A DNA stretch of 64,000 bases from NCBI RefSeq assembly GCF_019649055.1, contig NW_026570285.1, forward strand, positions 558,001-622,000, written 5' to 3'. Position numbers and translations under genes: made by a program. This document shows, piece by piece, positions 19,368-56,194 of the stretch; within the stretch, counting starts at the first letter, position 1; each line of letters opens with the position of its first letter. Source of the stretch: Paramacrobiotus metropolitanus (lineage: Eukaryota; Tardigrada; Eutardigrada; Parachela; Macrobiotidae). Below the pieces are notes generated by a model. That model did not search any database and was not told the origin of the DNA. It was given only the letters and a program-made list of their open reading frames with translations.

Positions 19368-20115
19368 TCATTTAGTCTTGTTTTCGAGACTATCCGCCGC
19401 AGATTTCTGGCTGGCTTCCTCTTCTTCCTCCGGAGCATAATCCGTGGGCTCCTCAGCTGGTCGCAGCAGACGACCAACCAGTTGGTACTTATCTGCAAAT
19501 AAGGTGGTTATTAAAAACAACAAATAATTATGGCACAACGCTGCATCAGATTTTGTCTTAAAAAATAAAACTAGACCATAAAAAGTTCTATAGGGCGAAC
19601 TGAGTGTCTCTTCCAGCGTAAAAATGCATATTTCAATTCTTGAAATTATTCACCTAAAAATACTCGAGGTATAAAAATTTTATCCTGAAACTGTTGATCC
19701 CAGTCCTTAACCGTGTTCATCTGATCCAGCGTCAAATCCGACAAGTCGTCGTGCGTGTCCCGCACCGCTGAATCATCCAGGGCAAAAGTGCCTAAACCTC
19801 TCGATGCATCTCTTCCCGCGAAAATCCCGTACGGACCACTTACGAAAAATAAACGCCGTTGAAGAATAGCGAGTTCTAATGTTCATTCACCTTCAGATTA
19901 TTGAAACAGCATGAAATCTTCGAATACACGACAAATAATTAAAATGCAGAAGGACAGAACGCAGCGAACTTTAAGCGCAGGAAAGTACCTGAGCCATAGA
20001 AACTTTTGCCTCTGGTAACATCGAACACTCTGGAAGGACTTTCAGTTCTTCCTGAGCATAATCCTTTTTGGGCAATTCGGGCAAGGGAGGCGGACGCACA
20101 GAGCGAGGGATGGAT
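19368..20115 (-). pseudogene. membrane-associated progesterone receptor component-like (PGRMC)
   Basis: The cytochrome-b5-like heme-binding domain of PGRMC is clear on the minus strand: LPELPKKDYAQEELK (20.0-20.1 kb), VFDVTRGKSFYGS (ending 19989), [14 protein letters not shown]...[20 protein letters not shown] (19.65-19.84 kb), then KYQLVGRLLRPAEEPTDY and an acidic tail to the stop at 19368. The FYG tyrosine that binds heme in the family is present. About 15-20 residues expected between EELK and VFDVT are missing, with a frame change. Two exon junctions need in-frame extra peptides ([12 protein letters not shown] and KIFIPRVFL) to use GT-AG sites. The N-terminal membrane anchor was not found. 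Probably a decayed or very divergent copy. Confidence 0.7.
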
Positions 20116-20547
20116 CGTCGTTATTATTACCCCGATAAGGAGCGCTTAACGATTTTTGGTAAGATTTATAGTCAACATCGATTCGCAATCGACAGTCATC
20201 AACAACAAATGTGTCAATTTGAAAACCCTAGGAATTTTTGGAATGTCGGTAACAAAGCCGTCTAAATGCTCCCCACACAACAAACAAATGCGAACTCTGT
20301 AAACAGATAGACAGACTGTGATATTATCCTGTTATGTTAAATTTTTAATATCCTATTATGTCCATCCGGAAAGATATATAATTATCATAAATTATGACCC
20401 TGAAATTTCTTCACTTTCAAAGATAAACAGTTCTTTCTCTACAGTTCTCTACAGATTTCCGCATTTCTACTGCGCACTTGTACGTTTCCAGAGTTAAATG
20501 TAAACAAAACTATTTGCTATAATGCAGTTCTGAGCATTCGAAATAAG

Positions 20548-20880
20548 TTGTTGGTTAGGCACAGTTGGGCGCATATCTATAACACGCAGTGTCACAAACC
20601 TGACTCTAAATACCACGTCCTACGAGCTGGCAGTAACTGTTGGTTGGGCGCAGTTGGGCGCATATTTTAAAATACAACTTTCACTTATTGTTACCACACA
20701 TCACCTGACCTTCGGTTTGTGTGATCGGTATGATTCCCGATCAGGATAGCATAATACAACTGTATTTTCGTTAAGGCCGTTTTGTTCTAATGGATATTTT
20801 GTACTCGTACCATGATAATTATTAAAGGTTCTCAGCTACCAGTAAGTTGTTACTTGGACTCAGTAGGTCGCATATTTATA
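20548..20880. repeat. three dispersed copies of a 35-bp direct repeat
   Basis: GTTGGTTAGGCACAGTTGGG...CGCATAT (20548), GTTGGTTGGGCGCAGTTGGG...CGCATAT (20639) and GTTACTTGGACTCAGTAGG...CGCATAT (20847) are imperfect direct repeats. No function is evident. Confidence 0.5.
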
Positions 20881-21254
20881 ACATATTATGATCTACTCAA
20901 ACTTGAAAACAAAGATATTGCCTTATTTATTTCGCCCTTTATTTATTGGTATTTTTAAAAGTTAATTACTACAAAACCAATACAAAATAACAAAATAATA
21001 GTGCAGTTCAATATAAGAAAAATACTAAGATACGAACTTCACAAGTATTAAGCGAGTAATTCAACACAATTACATCACATAGATAATAATACCGCACCAC
21101 CACTATCAGATAATAATACCACAGATAACTATAATGCACTTAGATAAAATGGTACAATGGCGCCAATAAATTGATGAATCACTCAAATAACAACAACAAA
21201 AATGAAAACGATTGGTCCATCTCAAAGTAAAACCAACGGTTCATGCTATTCCAT

Positions 21255-21446
21255 TCATTTATTTCGATTCTTCTTAGTTCCTGTATAAACAAATAAATGG
21301 TAAATAAATAAATTTAGAAAATATAAATTTAAAATAAATAATTATATTTAATTTTTTACCAGCAGATCGTTTGCTGGATTCAGGCTGCAATACGGTTGTA
21401 TTGTCGTCAGTGACAACAATATCCATAGCACTTCCTGGAATTTCGT
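21255..21446 (-). CDS. last two exons of an unrecognised AT-rich gene
   Basis: Acceptor TTTTGATAG, exon 21360-21446 (EIPGSAMDIVVTDDNTT...SSKRSA), donor GCTG|GTAAAA, then acceptor TTATACAG and terminal exon 21255-21280 (GTKKNRNK, stop). The phases join exactly. The tail is short, polar and basic. Upstream exons on the minus strand could not be assigned, but a TATA box at 22981-22992 points to transcription in this direction. Confidence 0.5.
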
Positions 21447-21539
21447 CTATCAAAATAAAAATTCATTATTAAATACCAAAAAATCATGTTCTCCAAATTT
21501 TTCCGAATTTAATCTTTAATAAAAAACATTTGTAAACCT

Positions 21540-21915
21540 CTAAACGGAACATTGCACCCACCTGTCTCTCATAACTCCAACTTCACTTGCAAATCTCAAA
21601 ACGAATCAAAATACCCTAAAATACTGAATGATACGGAACATTACACCCACCTGTTTCTTCAAAATATTTTCCAGCTTTAGTAAAATAAAAATCCTTAAAT
21701 ACAACAGACTTCACATCATACGGATCGTTACACCCACCTGTTTCTTCAAAATATTTTTTTCCCACACACATAATCATTCATCCATAACTATATTTACTCC
21801 ATAATATACCCAGATTCAAACCATTAAACCAGTCAACTTTACAGTACATTATACGCACCATATACTATACAATAAACCATACGGAACACTACATCCACCT
21901 GTTTCTTCAGTTTGA
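21540..21915 (-). repeat. four repeats ending in a splice-donor-like motif
   Basis: The motif GAAGAAACAG|GTGGGTGTAATG...CCG (minus strand) recurs near 21545, 21635, 21720 and 21880, about 85-160 bp apart. Two copies also share TTGAAGAAACAG preceded by AATATTT. Each copy looks like an exon end plus donor. They may be duplicated mini-exons of the minus-strand gene, or a simple dispersed repeat. Confidence 0.5.
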
Positions 21916-22980
21916 TTTTATCAATTACAATATCTGCACAACATAACTCCATAATGCCAAATAAATTTCCTATAATGCCACTTAATCTTTCTATATTTTA
22001 CCACAATATCCTTTTCCACATTTTCCGTAATATATTTTCTATTTTCCTTCATATATTCCATATTTTCCTTTTCTTACATAATATCTTTCATCATTTATTA
22101 ACATAAATATTATTTCTACCACTTTATTAATCAACTCACTATACCTTAAGATAATTTTCATTTTAACTTCCGCCTATCCAAATCACTCATTTCCAACTTT
22201 TTTGACATTCTAAAACTAAATGATGATATAACATTTAAAGCAAATCTCTCGTAGAATCAAATCAATTTCCATTCTTAAATCGTAGCGAAAGACCTCTAAG
22301 TTCAGCGCCAATGCAAAAATGTTTCTGTGTTCGTTTCGAAAGGTTGTTACCGAAGGTCATTACGAAAATGTTCCTGGCTCGTTATATTCTTAGGTTAAAT
22401 TATTGATATTGTTAATAACTAAAAGTGCTACTGGTAGAACGTTAAAAATTATTTATCTTTCACACATGCGAAAAGCTGCTACGCTCCGGTCTGCCAATGC
22501 ACACCTAGTTTTCCTACTTTACAAACGTACTCTCAACAGCATTTACACACCAAACATCCGAATATACAGATATACTGTATAAAATTGCAAGAAAAAATTA
22601 ACTTACCTCCTTAAAAACTAACCTTCTTAATACTAACCACCTTAAAACTATCCTTTTAAACCGCACTGCCATAAAGTCAAACGCCAACAAATACTCTATT
22701 TATTCCTTAATATCTTTTAATCTATTTTACTTAAGAAACCAAATACATTAAAAATTTAACAATAATTAAAAAAAATCCACTAAAAACAAATATTCCTTAC
22801 TTGTCACAAATTTGCCAAAATTCCTTCAAACACCTCTTCCCAGGCACTCCAAATCACTCTCCACCTTACTACAACAACCTTTACAATTCAAACTATCAAA
22901 AAAGACCTCACAACACAATCCACACAACAAACTTCTCACAACTTCCCTTAACCAACTAAATTTCAACCGCACTCCGATTT

Positions 22981-22992
22981 CCTTTTATATAC
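22981..22992 (-). promoter_or_regulatory. TATA box, minus strand
   Basis: GTATATAAAAGG on the minus strand closely matches the metazoan TATA consensus. It lies upstream of the minus-strand exons at 21.2-21.5 kb, with no competing plus-strand gene near. It would set a start about 30 bp further down (around 22955). Confidence 0.5.
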
Positions 22993-23351
22993 CCACAGCA
23001 CACTATGCTTCACAAAACCACCAATCACCAGGAAATACCTACCTCCCCCATCCGATAACTTCCAATCCAAAATCATTTCGTCAGAGAACTTTAAAAGCGG
23101 CCTCATTTATATCGAAGCACCCAACCCGAAAATCGTCCTTGACAGGACACATATGGCTAAACTACTGCTTCTACAAAAAAGACTACCCTTACAAATTCTA
23201 CACAACAGAGCCATATGGTCTCGGGTGCTAAACACCCTCTGTCGCAGTGGCAACCCCACCGCCTGCCGGAAAATGTAATACGGCCGTAATAGCTTTACAC
23301 TATTACATAACGCTACGTAGGTAAAATGAGCAATGCTCTGACTTTGAAATT

Positions 23352-23457
23352 TTTTGGCCACGCAACTGATGAATAGGGAATCTGCAGGCCCGCGTGCATA
23401 ACTGCTCTTTTGGCCACGCAACTGATGAATAGGGAATCTGCAGGCCCGCGTGCATAA
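23352..23457. repeat. tandem duplication, two 50-bp units
   Basis: 23352-23401 and 23408-23457 are essentially identical (TTTTGGCCACGCAACTGATG...), a 56-bp period with a 6-bp spacer. This is a recent local duplication. Confidence 0.85.
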
Positions 23458-23510
23458 GACTAAAGTAAGGCTCATTTTACAGGAATGCGTTATAGCCGTG
23501 ACAAGTGTAA

Positions 23511-23784
23511 GGGGCCATCCATAAATTACGTAACGCCAAAATTCACGGTTTTGAATACTCCCCTCCCCCTCTGTCACGAATGCTAACAAAACTGAGATCC
23601 CCTACCCTAAGCGTCACGTAATAAAATCAAAACCCGTCCATAAGCTATACCATTGTGACGTCATAATTGTAACAGAACGTAACAAATTTTTTAAGGCCCC
23701 CCTCCCCTTCGTCATAAATGGTAACGTTTCAAGGACTGGGGCCCCCCTTCCCCTGCTTGCGTTACGTAATTTATGGATGGTCCC
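23511..23784. mobile_element. MITE, PIF/Harbinger-like
   Basis: A 274-bp element with terminal inverted repeats GGGGCCATCCATAAATTACG... and ...CGTAATTTATGGATGGTCCC, flanked by TAA on both sides (23508-23510; 23785-23787). A 3-bp TWA target duplication and GGG-starting ends fit PIF/Harbinger. No coding capacity. Confidence 0.75.
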
Positions 23785-24217
23785 TAATCAAAAAGCCGGT
23801 TACACTTGGCATCATAAAGGTGCTCCATTAGCCGTACTGCGTTATGCATATCAGTTGATTTGTTGTAATAAACGTCTTCTGAAGACCGGTGTATAATCGC
23901 GTTCGTTATTATTGCAACTATTTCACATGACCCAAATACTTAATGGATCGGCCTGTTGTGGCAAATGATAAGCAACACAGAAGCCTTCGCACAAAGGCCA
24001 TCCAGCACACCGATATGAGATGATTTCAATTAAGCAATGCCAGAAAGTTGTGTAAATTCTGAATACATAAAGGCGATCAACCATTTGCCATGTCACTTAT
24101 TTAGCAACCATATCTCAGCACATCAGTCTAAACTCTAAACAGCTTGGAAGTTACGAGAATTTTATGATTATTGCTGCATCCTGTGACTGTATTGTTCCGG
24201 TAGTAAAAATCGCAGAG

Positions 24218-35964: not shown

Positions 35965-36539
35965 CAGGGGCTATTCGAGACCCCCATCGACCATGTACTA
36001 TTTTTTTAAGCCGAATCTGACCATGTAGTAATGATCAGCGAATTTTTCTGATCTAGAAAGTGTTTTTTAAAATTTTTTTCGGAACAAAAAAATTCTGACT
36101 GCCAGCCCCCTAAGCCCCCCACAGTATCCTGAGCGGTAGCAATGGTACCAGGGGCAAAAATTATATTTTCGTCGTTTTTTCACTTTTTCTAGGTAAATCA
36201 ACAACGCTGAATTCGATTTGACATTAAAAATATAATTTGAGCTAAGCATAAAAAGATTTACGTAAAACGAACAAAAATTCACACAGTTGATGTTACAACA
36301 ATTTTCAACACCCTTCTCAGCAAAAGTTCTTCCACACTGCTTATATTAATTTTTTAACATCAAATTTGAATTCAGCGTTATTGATTTACCTAGAAAAAGT
36401 GAACAACATACGAAAATAAAAATTTTGCCCCTGATCCCATTGCTACCGCCCAGGATACTATGGGGGGCTAAGGGGGCTGGCAGTCAGATTCGGCTTAAAA
36501 AAATAGTACATGGTCGATGGGGGTCTCGAATAGCCCCTG
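35965..36539. mobile_element. hAT-type MITE with intact 8-bp TSD
   Basis: Ends CAGGGGCTATTCGAGACCCC and ...GGGTCTCGAATAGCCCCTG are perfect inverted repeats that continue for more than 50 bp. Direct repeat GTGACAGA flanks it (35957-35964; 36540-36547). An 8-bp duplication with CAGGGG ends is diagnostic of hAT. About 575 bp, no transposase. Confidence 0.88.
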
Positions 36540-36865: not shown

Positions 36866-37936
36866 ATGGACTTAACCATAATGGGCTTAAACGCGACAAT
36901 GACTCATAACCTGTCGGTACTGTGGACGCCGCATAACAACCATTCGGATTCCCGGTCGGTCAGCGTCTCCTTGGACGCCGGCGCCGTGAGCACCGGAATC
37001 CTGGCCGTCGCGTTCAACGCCTTGGCGCTGCTGGTGACCTTTACCAATGCATCCCTGTGGACACCCTTCAACATCTACATCGTGGCCATAATGTGCAGCA
37101 ACGTGGCGTTCGGCTGTCTGGACCGGGCACTGGACATCGTCGAGCGTGCGTACGGGTCAGTGTACCTGGGTCACTCCCTGTGCACCCTACGCTTGTACTC
37201 CATCTACATCATCTCCCCGCATTTATACAACTTCCCCTGGCTGATCACGCTGAACCGCGCCTGGGCCCTCTTCGCACCCGTCTCCTACCGGGCCCGCCAC
37301 AACCGGACCACCGCCGTCCTTTTCTGCGGCGCCGTGATGGTGTACGTGCACAATTTCATGCTGCCGTTGCTGATTCGCGATCGGATGTTCTATCGTCTGC
37401 CGTTGGAGGGCGGCTGCCGGCTGAATAACGCCGGCCAACCGACGCTCGTGGAGTTGACGTCTATCCTGATTTATGACGTACCCAAGTAGGGCATTCCGGT
37501 CGTCTTCCCCTTCTTACTGTGGAAGATGTGCTCGCGAATCTCGCGACGACCGGGTGCTAATCCAGCTGCACCGGAAGCTAGGCAGGAAGGTCCGCAGCGT
37601 CCCTTTATAGTGCTGACGTTGTACACCGGCAGTACCTTGGTTTGTTGGTGGCCGATCATATGCTACTTCACTATCCTTACCTACAATCCCAATACCAAAT
37701 TGCCCCTCGCCTTCTATCGAGCCGCATCCGACCTGTACACCATCCAAGCTGTCCTGGATCCGCTGATTTTCGGCCTGACCCTCGGCAACATCCGCAGTTA
37801 TTGGCGCCGGCTCTGCAGAAGAAGGACTAACAACCAAGTCATGCTGGTCAGCATTTCCGGTGACCGGGAAACCGCCGCCGCCAGAACAACCAGAGAGAAT
37901 CCCAACGTGATGCTGAATGTTGCCAGCGTGTCTTAA
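36866..37936 (+). pseudogene. rhodopsin-like 7TM receptor 1, one in-frame TAG
   Basis: A single uninterrupted frame from ATG 36866 to TAA 37936, except TAG at 37487-37489 in the fifth transmembrane segment (YDVPK*GIPVVFPFLLWKM). The receptor at 51195 aligns without gaps and has Ala there. Seven segments can be placed: TM1 GILAVAFNALALLVTF, TM2 FNIYIVAIMCSNVAFG, TM3 around LYSIYIISPHLYNFPW, NRAWALFAPVSYRARH in place of the DRY motif, TM4 AVLFCGAVMVYVHNF, TM5 as above, TM6 STLVCWWPIICYF (CWxP) and TM7 AVLDPLIF (in place of NPxxY). The N-terminus has N-glycosylation sequons (NLS, NHS). No intron. It is a pseudogene, a readthrough gene, or carries a sequence error. Confidence 0.8.
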
Positions 37937-51194: not shown

Positions 51195-52834
51195 ATGGGC
51201 TCTGCTACCAACCTGACGGACGTTCTGTTGTCGCACAGCAACACCACATCCTTTCCCTCGCCGGCCAACGCCTCTGCCGTGCACCAGCTATCCCCGGGCA
51301 TCATCACCACCACAGTGCTATCCGTGACCTTTAACGTCCTCGGAGTGCTGTTCGCGCTGAGCAGCGCATCGCTGCGGACGCCCTTCAACGTGTACATCGT
51401 CGCGTTAATGTGCAGCAATATAGCGTTTGAGACCTGGGAATGCAGCATGCTGGGCCTGATGGACGCGTACGGACTAGTCGGGCTCGGCAGCTCCGTCTGC
51501 ACCCTCCGTTTGTACGGCGTCTACGTCCTGGCGCCCATCGTCTACCACACACACTTCCTCATCACGCTGAACCGCGCCTGGGCCATCCTGTGGCCTGTGT
51601 CCTACCGTGCACGACACAACCACACGGTCGCTGGTTTATTGTGCGCCGCGATGGTCGGATACGTGCACTTGATGATGCTGCCGGAACTGCTACGTGATCA
51701 CCTGTACTATCGTCTCCCGCTGGAATATGGCTGCTGGCTCAACGCTGCGCGTCAGGTCGGTAGCACGTTCATTCGCCGACCTACAATTCGCTGACCGACA
51801 TTTTGTTGACCGACATATTGCTGACTTACACAACTCGTTGACCGACAAATTGTTGACCGACAACTTGCTTTCCGCTGGGTTGATGACCGAAGTTCTGTCA
51901 AAACATTTTCGCTGACCGACAATTTGTTTTTCGGTCTGAAATGTTGGTTTTTGAGTTTCCTTGACTTGTTTTTTTTCTTGGGTTTCTTAGGTTTCTTTGG
52001 TTTCTTAGTTTTCTTAGGTTTCTCAGGTCTCTTAGGTTTGTCACGTCAGCACAATGTCGTCAGCAGGTTGTCGGTGTCGTTTACAAAGTCGTTCAACGAT
52101 GTGTCGTTTTCAACAAATTGTCGGGTAAACATTCTTAGGTTGTTCTTAGGTTTCTTAGTTTTTCTTGAGCTTCTTAAGCTTTTCAAGTCAGCAAAATGTC
52201 GTCAGCAAACTGTCGGTGTTCACACGAAGCCGTTCAGCAAACTGTCGTTTCAACAAACCGTCGGGTAAACATTTTGCCGGTCAGCAAAAGGTCATCAGCA
52301 AGTTGTCGGTCAGCGAATTGTCGGTGTGCCCGTTAGGTAACTTTGACGGAGTTCACGTCCATCTGGATGTACGATGTACCGTGCGCGTGCGTCTATATCA
52401 TCTATCCGTTTCTGCTGTGGAAGATGCTGGCGCGACGACGAGCGAAGCGAAGAAATCGCAGTGACAATCCAGCGGCGCAACGTGCACCGCTGGAATCCTC
52501 CAACCGGCCCTTCATCCTGCTGACGCTGTACACCTGCAGCACCCTGGTGTGCTGGCTGCCCATTATGATCTTCTACCTGTTCGCCACCTTCTTCCCCGCG
52601 GTCCCGCTGAGCCCCGCCTTCTTCCAAGGCACGTCCATCCTGTATAATCTGCAGTCGATCCTGGATCCGTTGATCTTCGCTATCACGGCCAGCAATGTGC
52701 TGGTAAATGCACGGCGACTGTGCAGTAGACTGTGTAACAACCAAGTCGGGATTTCTGCTGATCGGGCTCAGCTAGCAGCCAATCCACCGGGAATCAGGCA
52801 GAATGCCAACGTTGCCGCTACGGCTCCGACATAA
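51195..52834 (+). CDS. rhodopsin-like 7TM receptor 2, one intron
   Basis: Exon 1 51195-51755 and exon 2 52337-52834 join in phase 0 (ARQ|VTLTEFTS). N-terminus has N-linked sequons (NLT, NTT, NAS). Segments: TM1 TTTVLSVTFNVLGVLFAL, TM2 FNVYIVALMCSNIAFE, TM3 near LYGVYVLAPIVYHTHF, NRAWAILWPVSYRARH in place of DRY, TM4 GLLCAAMVGYVHLMML, TM5 CACVYIIYPFLLWKM, TM6 STLVCWLPIMIFYLF (CWLP) and TM7 SILDPLIFAIT. It is a close paralogue of the receptor at 36866, which lacks the intron. Ligand unknown. All segments are intact, so the gene is probably functional if the intron is spliced. Confidence 0.85.
51756..52336. mobile_element. foldback element G forming the receptor 2 intron
   Basis: 581 bp between CAG|GTCGG and CCGTTAG|GTAAC. 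Arms are GACCGACAATTTGTTG-type units; ACAATTCGCTGACCGACA near the left end is exactly repeated inverted near the right end. The core (51975-52045 and near 52135) is TTTCTTAGG units, the complement of CCTAAGAAA. Flanking 9-mers GCGTCAGGT (51749-51757) and CCGTTAGGT (52330-52338) match at 7 of 9 and look like a target duplication. The left copy gives the donor GT and the right copy the acceptor AG. Confidence 0.85.
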
Positions 52835-53670
52835 TGTAACGCATGTTCAGACGTTACTTTAATTTTTGTGTCCGGGACAATCTTCAATTTTTTGTGGTTG
52901 CGGGATTTATTTTGTTATGACCTTTGTAACGGTATTAAAGCCAAAGTTTGGTTTTTGCTATAGTATTCGATGTACAGCCACGGTTTTGTTATAATATTCG
53001 ACGAAGTTAACCAGATTCTGCAAACACTGTAGTTAATTCGGCGAGAGAACTGTTTTATTTTCCTTTGGAAACAATTTGCGTTCATGCCGTGAATGATCAA
53101 TTAGGAGGTACTGAAAGAAAATGGCAATATCGTTCCACAGGTAATTATCACGCAATATAAAATGGGCGAAATTCTTCCGGTAGGGTTGTGCGAACTCAGC
53201 GTAGTCGTTGCAAACAATTCATTAGCAAGAACTAGAATGATTATAGCATTGCAGTGACTGCACTGTCGATACCGGTATTCCTATAACCAAAAAACCTTTA
53301 TCTTCCTCATTAAAACCGTCTTCACTGTCACGAGTAGTGCCGCGTGTCAAAGCTTGCTTAGATGTTTTAGTGCAGGTGTTGTGGGCGTTGATTGAGCACA
53401 TTAATGCGGACAATCAACAACATCTTTTACGGCGTTATACCCCCATCGTGTTTCGCACACTAACGCTTGGATTACATTGTGCTCAGGGTTGACTTAAGTC
53501 GTAATCCCGGTGACGAAACGAAAAACGGTGGCGGTAGTGATTCTTGGTATTTTGTCGGAAAAATTACCACGGCTTTCTCGCATGGTGAGCAAATAAACAA
53601 ACTAGACTTAGTACCCATTATACTCGATTCGTCAAAGATAAAATTCGGAACTGCATTAACTATACGAGAA
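52835..53670. other. no gene seen
   Basis: Downstream of receptor 2; nothing supported. Confidence 0.4.
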
Positions 53671-53902
53671 TGTGCGCAGTCAAACCGACAGTAAATTTTT
53701 TCAGTGAGACCAACCGACAACCACGTACACAAGCAGACTTATTTTTTCACATAACAGCCACCCGTGGAAGCGAGGTATCGTTTGCACTGTAGGCGTGGTA
53801 CAGGTGACAGCCATCCGTGGATGGTTGGCAGTCGCCTGCACTATATGCACGGTTGTCGGTTGGTCTCGCTGAAAAAATTTACTGTCGGTTTGACTGCGTG
53901 CA
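53671..53902. repeat. 56-bp inverted repeat, MITE-like
   Basis: 53671-53726 (TGTGCGCAGTCAAACCGACA...) and 53847-53902 (...TGTCGGTTTGACTGCGTGCA) are reverse complements with about four differences, separated by 120 bp. It could be a small foldback element. No flanking duplication was recognised. Confidence 0.7.
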
Positions 53903-56194
53903 TCCTCGTACTCGAAGTACCCGGAACAGCCAGGCAGCCGCTGACTCAGAAGAACGCGCCGCTGTAATTTGGACAGTAAGCATGACCCTCCATGGAGGTT
54001 TATAGAATAATTTTCAGGAATTTCCGGCAAAAATGTCGGCTCCAAGTCCAGTCTGCGTACAGAGCACAGTTAAGTCGCAAGTCAATGGCAATTGTGTGCG
54101 AAGCACAAATCGTAGCTAAATTTCCTCCATTATTACCATAATACTGACCTAACGGCCAGCGCTGCGGCGGTGTACCAAAATAATATCATAAAATAACCGA
54201 CTAATATTAAACTATTTAACGCCGGACATTACAGCATATTTAACGCTGGAATTACAGCACGCTTACACGATCACCGGCATATTGCATAAATACAGATGTA
54301 CTGTTGTATTGTACATTCAGTACTTTTATAAAGCCGATATAAAACTACCCGATAAATAAAATGCATACTGAAGTGTATATTTTGCTCATTAACTTATCAT
54401 AGTGGCCCACTTAGGTGTTTTTACGAGAAGTAAGACAAACGACTGATGCCGGCTGGATAAGTTTTTTCTTGTCGGCCGTTCTTTCACCAACCCACATATT
54501 CGCCAGTAATTTGTTTCTGGATTTTTTTATTCGGTTAGCAGCGTTGGTTGGTTTTCTCGTTACTGTGCACGGGCGTTGCAGTGAACAAATGCAAAAAGCT
54601 ACGAATTCTAGCTTTGCGGAGGAAGTGCTGTGATGATAGTTTGCCAGTACTAACTTATTTACCGTGAAGCTGCATCAGATGCGGTAAATTACCCGCGCTT
54701 GGACGCGCACAAAGAAAAAGAACGGAAATCTACATAGTACAATTAGGTGCTTCGAGTAAAATTAAACTGCGCCAAGGCTTTGAGCGAAGAGCGCGTCGCC
54801 CAGCACCTGACGCATTACCGAAGACTTGAACATTCGATGACTCCGCCGCTGCCCATCTGCAGTGATCAGCAGAGCAATTATAAATTACAACGGACATTAC
54901 AAAAGTAAATATCTCTATTTTACCTCGTGCCAATTAAAAAAATAAATAAAACAAATAAATTAAATAATACAGAATTGGTATAATTTTTCTTGCATAAATC
55001 ATTATGTAAGCCATCGAAGGAAACGATAACCGAAAGTTTCTGTGAAGACTTTTTTAATGATCTACAACGGTGCTGACGTGGAACCTCGCAATGAATTGAG
55101 CAAGACCCTGCAGTGTAAGCGAAAACCACATGCTGATTTTTGCGTGAAAGGTATTCCTCGCCTTGAAAATTCAAATTTCACCAGTGTGAAAGCATACAAC
55201 AATTTCATCGCCAATCAGCTGAACAGCGAAGGAATTTCTACCAGATTCGTAAGTGTTTTTCGTTCCCCCACGTGGAGACAAGCGCACTGCGACGTTTGCG
55301 CGGATTGGAATATTCAAAGACGATGCTGATAAATCCACGACCTGAACTTTGGCCTCAACGTTTTCGTGCGAGAATGGGTGTACTGATTGATCTTGTTGAC
55401 TATTGTGATATCCTTCGTTTTATGTTACATACTGAAATAACTTTGTTTACTGTGCATTGTGATTACGATAGCTGGAAGAATTTTGAAAGGGGCATTTTTT
55501 TGGCAGCTGATCTTGAACGTTTGTCTGCAACCTCGTGCAGGCGTTTACCTGATTGTTGTAGACGTTAAGCTAATTAAACAAACAAACAAACAAACAAATG
55601 CCAGTTTTGTCTAAAGTTGTTTCGACGATAATTTTTAAGTATTAACTGCAAATAGTGTTAGTGTTATTGCGGTGTTAGCAAAATGTTTTGAAAGCTGAGA
55701 GATTAAAGTAAACTTTTTTCTTTCACAGGACAATAAATTTCTCCGTTTTTAGCCTTTTCGATATTGCGAATGCGGCAGTCTTTGCATTAAAAAAAAACGC
55801 ACATTATGGCCACTTCAGCGCACTTTACCGTTAGACACCAAAAAAGTTTACATTTCGCTGACAAAAATAAATTTGAAACGAGTTTTATTATTTTGTTACC
55901 GTAAGGTTGCTGAGAAGCTCCCTGTTTTGGGCACGTTCTCCAAACATTTATACTTGCGGTTCGAGCAAGTTTTTTTAAGCAGCGTTCGAGCAAATCCTCC
56001 CTTTCAATAAGAATGAAGAACTCCTAATGTTAACACAGTTTATGCTGCGCAAAAAGTTGGCTTTGCGGGAATAATTTTATGGTGAAGAAAATTAAAAATA
56101 AAAGGAGGTGCACGCAGATAAAGGTAGTGCCGAATGGTATATGTACGGAGTGGTCACCTCTCAGTATATTTCTTATTAATCACGGTTCCATTAC
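53903..56194. other. no firm gene; possible small exons
   Basis: 55042-55250 (+) is an open frame (LSKTLQCKRKPHADFCVKG...) ending at a good donor, TTC|GTAAGTG. 55272-55568 (+) is another open frame. Neither has a recognised domain, and their junction is not resolved. Confidence 0.35.

Follow-up and report, generated by a model that had tools for sequence, protein, structure and literature searches.

The window analyzed here is a 64,000-nt stretch of the genome of the tardigrade Paramacrobiotus metropolitanus. At 51195-52834 on its forward strand lies a gene for a rhodopsin-type receptor, which an inserted element interrupts after Gln187. Exon 1 (51195-51755, codons 1-187) and exon 2 (52337-52834, codons 188-352 and the stop codon TAA), when joined across 51755|52337, give an open reading frame (ORF) of 352 amino acids with a 7tm_1 match in Pfam (PF00001, E 2.6e-17). 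Read unspliced, the frame reaches a stop 13 codons past the junction, inside the element. The genome shows a large expansion of such receptors, and at least 110 matches to the receptor family cross codon 188 unbroken.

Several other features of the window were recorded. Just past the receptor gene on its downstream side, at 53663-53910, two 60-nt arms with 93% complementarity form an inverted repeat, and a nested inverted repeat at 35965-36539, with 57-nt arms that are 100% and 126-nt arms that are 89% complementary, could be a mobile element or a hairpin. The stretch 20001-24000 has a low GC content and a C-over-G skew of -0.22 to -0.33, for which no clear cause was found; a mitochondrial origin of this 20-24 kb stretch was rejected, as code 5 ORFs inspected by eye gave no sign of it. 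The Rfam search returned no family at threshold anywhere in the 64,000-nt window.

The interruption begins at CAG|GTCGGT (51755/51756) and ends at GTTAG|GTAACT (52336/52337), which delimits a proposed GT...AG intron of 581 nt in phase 0 (51756-52336, forward strand). Of the 1,111 GT-AG pairs tested (donors 51691-52300, acceptors up to 52429), three restored the frame downstream; they share the donor at 51756, and only 51756-52336 does so while leaving the number of residues as it was. Both splice sites look weak: the donor GTCGGT has a C at +3, and 7 of 12 bases at the acceptor are pyrimidines, a number exceeded at 14 of the 27 AGs in the interval, none of which restores the frame.

The interval is a foldback structure, since its DNA fold (z = -7.06) was matched in stability by 0 of 100 shuffled sequences. 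The element itself measures 572 bp (51759-52330, forward strand) and runs from GGTAGCACG to GTGTGCC, ends that are common to copies elsewhere in the genome. Its left arm (51779-51928) contains 15-bp tandem units, which are also present in the right arm (52264-52325), inverted relative to the left one. Between the arms, at 51974-52039, the repeat search and the acceptor survey located a tandem repeat of 9-bp TTTCTTAGG-like units with acceptor-like sites.

We then used the interval to search the 169.8-Mb assembly (533 contigs); of 712 candidates, 40 were scored, and at least 78 matches were obtained. Both ends were sharp and common to the aligned copies (GGTAGCACG left, GTGTGCC right), and a genome search with the end patterns found 47 left and 95 right ends, where the reversed controls gave 0. 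A sibling family provided 45 left ends (control 2) and pairs with many of the right ends found for the focal family. The copy loci numbered 110, of which 10, the focal one included, came from the search with the interval; one (L099) was dropped at orientation, and 37 of the 109 oriented loci passed the two-end match. The addition of left flanks completed 20 more right-end copies, bringing the two-ended copies to 57 in total, and about a dozen matches with only a left end were left out of the set. From a consensus built on 31 of the 37 two-ended copies, focal copy included, the focal element differs by 13.2% and by 6 indel events. The element is therefore not young, unless its source copy had already diverged, and part of this distance may have arisen before the element inserted.

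Because the other copies define the element ends independently, the focal target duplication could be placed at CGTCAGGTC (51750-51758, set by the left end of the family) and CGTTAGGTA (52331-52339, set by the right end), both on the forward strand and identical at 7/9 positions. The sequence-only reading had proposed a duplicated 9-bp target holding AGGT; the duplication and its AGGT stand, but the 9-mers it gave lie 1 base too far to the left. Its further claim, that this duplication supplies both splice sites, is supported by the corrected placement: the left AGGT copy holds the donor GT (51756-51757) and the right one the acceptor AG (52335-52336). To the proposed intron the left duplication contributes its last 3 bases, the element 572 and the right duplication its first 6, which add up to 581 nt. 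Of the two mismatches, one sets TAG in the intronic copy against CAG in the exonic copy, and the other falls on the third base of a valine codon; neither affects the exonic reading.

Similar duplications flank many other copies. In the first-pass set, the flanking 9-mers agreed at 7/9 or better in 15 of the 37 two-ended copies (focal included), compared to 0.075% of the 1,332 mismatched flank pairs that served as the control for these 37. The sibling family reached this level in 13 of 20 copies, 11 of them perfect, compared to 2 of 380 mismatched pairs. Pooling both sets gave 28 of 57 two-ended copies at 7/9 or better and less than 1% of the mismatched pairs. The other 29 (22 first-pass and 7 sibling copies) fell below 7/9 at zero offset; among these 22, some (L010, L092 and L096) match at a small offset by eye and others do not.

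To place the element among known transposons, MULE transposase domains were located at 54 places in the genome, at least two of which, on C1 and C74, sit between arms of the focal family. These relatives were revealed by the arm pattern, for which the best 100 of 228 places were used; no MULE relative was seen beside the listed end-pattern matches. The two elements are 3,027 and 3,090 bp long (L132, 265-3291, and L133, 334-3423 on the reverse strand), and more than 99.5% identical where aligned. They start with GGTAGCACG, end with GTGCGCC and are flanked by perfect 9-bp duplications, GAGCTCGCT and ATTGTGACA. The first ORF of L132 (C74) encodes a FLYWCH domain (PF04500, E 2.8e-9) and a MULE domain (PF10551, E 1.5e-6), and its second ORF has no Pfam match. 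The near-identity of these 3-kb elements and their perfect duplications suggest recent activity; their coding region is split into two ORFs, perhaps by an intron, and L133 sits in a coding flank that resembles a retroelement by eye.

The focal element matches both arms of the MULE elements at ~75%, left arm resembling left arm and right arm resembling right arm (shuffled focal sequences matched in 0 of 50 cases), and the 31-copy consensus matches them at 83-87%. The focal copy itself has no FLYWCH or MULE ORF. The foldback nature claimed from the sequence is confirmed by the fold and the inverted arms, and the 9-bp duplications, composite inverted tandem arms, asymmetric ends and FLYWCH+MULE relatives place the element in the Mutator/Foldback family (Phantom-type, Tm1-like). 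Judging from the common arms, the 3-kb MULE elements or their kin presumably mobilized the focal copy.

An intronless paralogue lies in the same window, at 36866-37936 on the forward strand. The sequence-only reading had taken it to read straight through the interrupted codons, and it indeed aligns there without a gap, but an in-frame TAG at 37487-37489 makes it a poor reference on its own. The TAG is codon 208, and with 22 of 29 invariant residues retained downstream this paralogue may be a pseudogene or reflect an assembly error; upstream it retains 46 of 50, more than the focal gene does. Nine further paralogues were collected, eight of them free of stops in the match and one (L020) with a TGA, and all ten align through Q187|188 without a gap. 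More broadly, 113 paralogue matches were counted, after the two exons of the focal gene and seven short pieces from the C-terminus had been set aside from 122; of the 113, 110 run unbroken across the site, and 13 of the 110 contain a stop. Introns suspected at gaps in seven distant receptor paralogues were rejected, as the translations, judged by eye, resemble open loop insertions. Since the paralogues are gapless at the site, gain is far more economical than loss. The direction first proposed is hence upheld by paralogues from a single genome, in which an intron gain appears far likelier than a loss.

Exon 2 of the focal gene retains 28 of the 29 residues that are invariant in the nine paralogues, and exon 1 retains 43 of 49. 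Had the exon decayed neutrally by 8%, about 4 of the 28 residues should have changed; as some simulated runs changed 0, the conservation of exon 2 counts as support, not proof. The ORF is intact although the element lies 13.2% from the consensus. For 8% decay, neutral simulation gave such an intact frame a probability of 0.09 when indels were left out and of 0.0008-0.004 when they were added at 5-10% of the substitutions; for 3% decay the values were 0.05-0.41. Pairwise dN/dS ranged from 0.23 to 0.49, values that mostly reflect the time before the insertion. On the protein tree, the focal branch is 0.73 long and that of the stop-bearing paralogue 0.76, the others ranging from 0.08 to 0.48; given this long branch and the weak splice sites, splicing may be leaky or the gene under weak constraint. 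Taken on the sequence, the cell can probably cut the element out as a new intron, and we infer that the spliceosome removes it from the mRNA in vivo.

The sequence-only reading had also linked the case to introners at large, an idea that found no support as regards the AGGT route in the two-ended copies. Only one other of the 57 two-ended copies, the sibling copy L051/L136 (about 96144-97544 of G000 C131), has AGGT on either strand in both flanking 9-mers, which brings the total to 2/57 with the focal copy. Its duplication is perfect (ATTTTACCT, or AGGTAAAAT on the other strand, the AGGT being antisense) and its geometry is splice-ready; when its 300-bp flanks are joined, no frame that crosses the join is longer than 52 codons, so this copy is not evidently in an exon. 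As a random 9-mer holds AGGT with a probability of 2.3% per strand, no target preference is needed to account for 2/57. Exact patterns of AGGT plus an element end gave 2, 0 and 2 matches against 8, 8 and 0 in the respective reversed controls; the absence of such matches is weak evidence, because the patterns are short and the controls were as high or higher in two of the three. Two sites with AGGT beside an element end were rejected, one on C446 that had no matching duplication by eye and one on C41 that had a short right-end stretch only, with no element seen.

Another copy, L004, at 5.9% from the consensus, interrupts the coding frame of a repeated gene family on C1 without AGGT. That family has 25 genome matches, two of which are the halves of the interrupted member itself, and by eye no usable splice pair adjoins the ends of the element. 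The insertions look blind, the focal one having happened to be splice-ready, and as far as the AGGT route in the 57 two-ended copies goes, the receptor case appears to be an isolated stroke of luck and no part of an introner burst.

The following series of events could account for the locus. A non-autonomous Mutator/Foldback (Phantom-type) element would have entered a receptor gene that had no intron, at a target with AGGT in it, and the 9-bp target duplication would have set AGGT on each side of the element. Of these two, the left one would then act as 5' splice site (CAG|GTCGGT) and the right one as 3' splice site (GTTAG|GTA), so that excision of the element together with one target copy would leave the codons exactly unchanged. 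With the family, ends and duplication of the element, the frame restoration, the gapless paralogues and the transposase-bearing relatives all observed, we consider it quite probable that a Mutator/Foldback insertion at AGGT made a new intron here, with both splice sites drawn from the duplicated target.

The insertion might instead have been disruptive, the element being hardly or not at all spliced and the gene a young pseudogene with a frame that has yet to decay. The weak splice sites and the better-looking acceptors in the interior would fit this, as would the long protein branch and the 43 of 49 invariant residues in exon 1, and decay of no more than 3% could well leave the ORF intact. 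The 13.2% distance from the consensus and the 7/9 duplication speak for an older insertion, however, and the 28 of 29 invariant residues in exon 2 and the exact splice-ready geometry also count against this reading; we regard such a pseudogene as unlikely. It is also conceivable that the intron is an old one, lost from the paralogues and later filled by the element. The ten aligned paralogues are gapless, though, and 3 + 572 + 6 explains all 581 nt: because the interval is wholly duplication, element and duplication, there is no remnant of an older intron, and this history seems highly improbable. That the family would be an introner in the full sense, making introns in many genes of the genome by the same route, could draw on its many copies and on L051/L136 as a second copy with (antisense) AGGT in a perfect duplication. 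Against it, that copy has no frame of more than 52 codons once its flanks are joined, AGGT in both flanks occurs at near the chance number, and L004 broke into a coding frame where there was no AGGT, and we hold this to be very unlikely too.

For the preferred reading, a new intron made by insertion at AGGT, the foldback arms may have been of some help. As the arms adjoin the target duplications on the inner side, one long transcript hairpin can form, and the predicted RNA hairpin spans almost from splice site to splice site (z = -5.8; 0 of 20 shuffles equally stable). Such a hairpin would bring the weak target-derived splice sites together and leave the interior TTTCTTAG repeats, with their likeness to acceptors, in the loop. 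That foldback transposons are in general predisposed to become introns is doubtful to us, and on the present case it can be tested concretely whether foldback arms aid the splicing of a new intron.

The route of intron gain proposed here is uncommon and has already been described, and the present case is unusually well documented by sequence. Few natural animal introns have every base explained by a DNA transposon of known placement and its target duplication. The receptor intron adds a Mutator/Foldback element and a tardigrade to them, and its genome also provides the transposase-bearing relatives and many paralogues without the intron. In the literature searched, which left most subscription papers outside, no report of tardigrade introners was found, and the combination of introner and mutator matched on MSH1 genes only.

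An early counterpart is the Ds-generated intron of maize, which Giroux et al. are said to have reported in 1994. It and the receptor intron are alike in being DNA transposon insertions converted to introns; maize Ds is a hAT element with an 8-bp duplication. For the element itself, the closest likeness is to Tm1 of root-knot nematodes, a Phantom-type Mutator/Foldback family (Gross and Williamson 2011, PMC3169594). According to the parts of that article consulted, Tm1 and the focal family have in common composite terminal repeats with tandem units (13-15 bp in Tm1), asymmetric outer motifs, 9-bp duplications, and short MITE-like copies alongside longer FLYWCH/MULE copies. Tm1 differs in sequence and belongs to another phylum, and those parts of the account do not mention intron creation.

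The anatomy that we propose for the receptor intron is exactly that of the AGGT-insertion model, as set out in the consulted sections of Yenerall and Zhou 2012 (PMC3443670), in which insertion at AGGT duplicates the target and provides an AG|GT donor and an AG|G acceptor, leaving the coding sequence unchanged. The same sections count 35 transposon-derived intron gains, in Oryza, Drosophila, Oikopleura and Zea; compared to these, the receptor intron is found in another animal group and derives from a Mutator/Foldback element. Finally, the excerpts used from Gozashti et al. 2022 (PMC9860276) describe introners, for example in Florenciella, whose two splice sites both come from the site of insertion; as to animals and land plants, they report introners from just two groups, both of them animal. 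The Florenciella introners and the focal element are alike in that the target supplies both splice sites and the element neither, whereas, set against the introners described there, a single case was found here.
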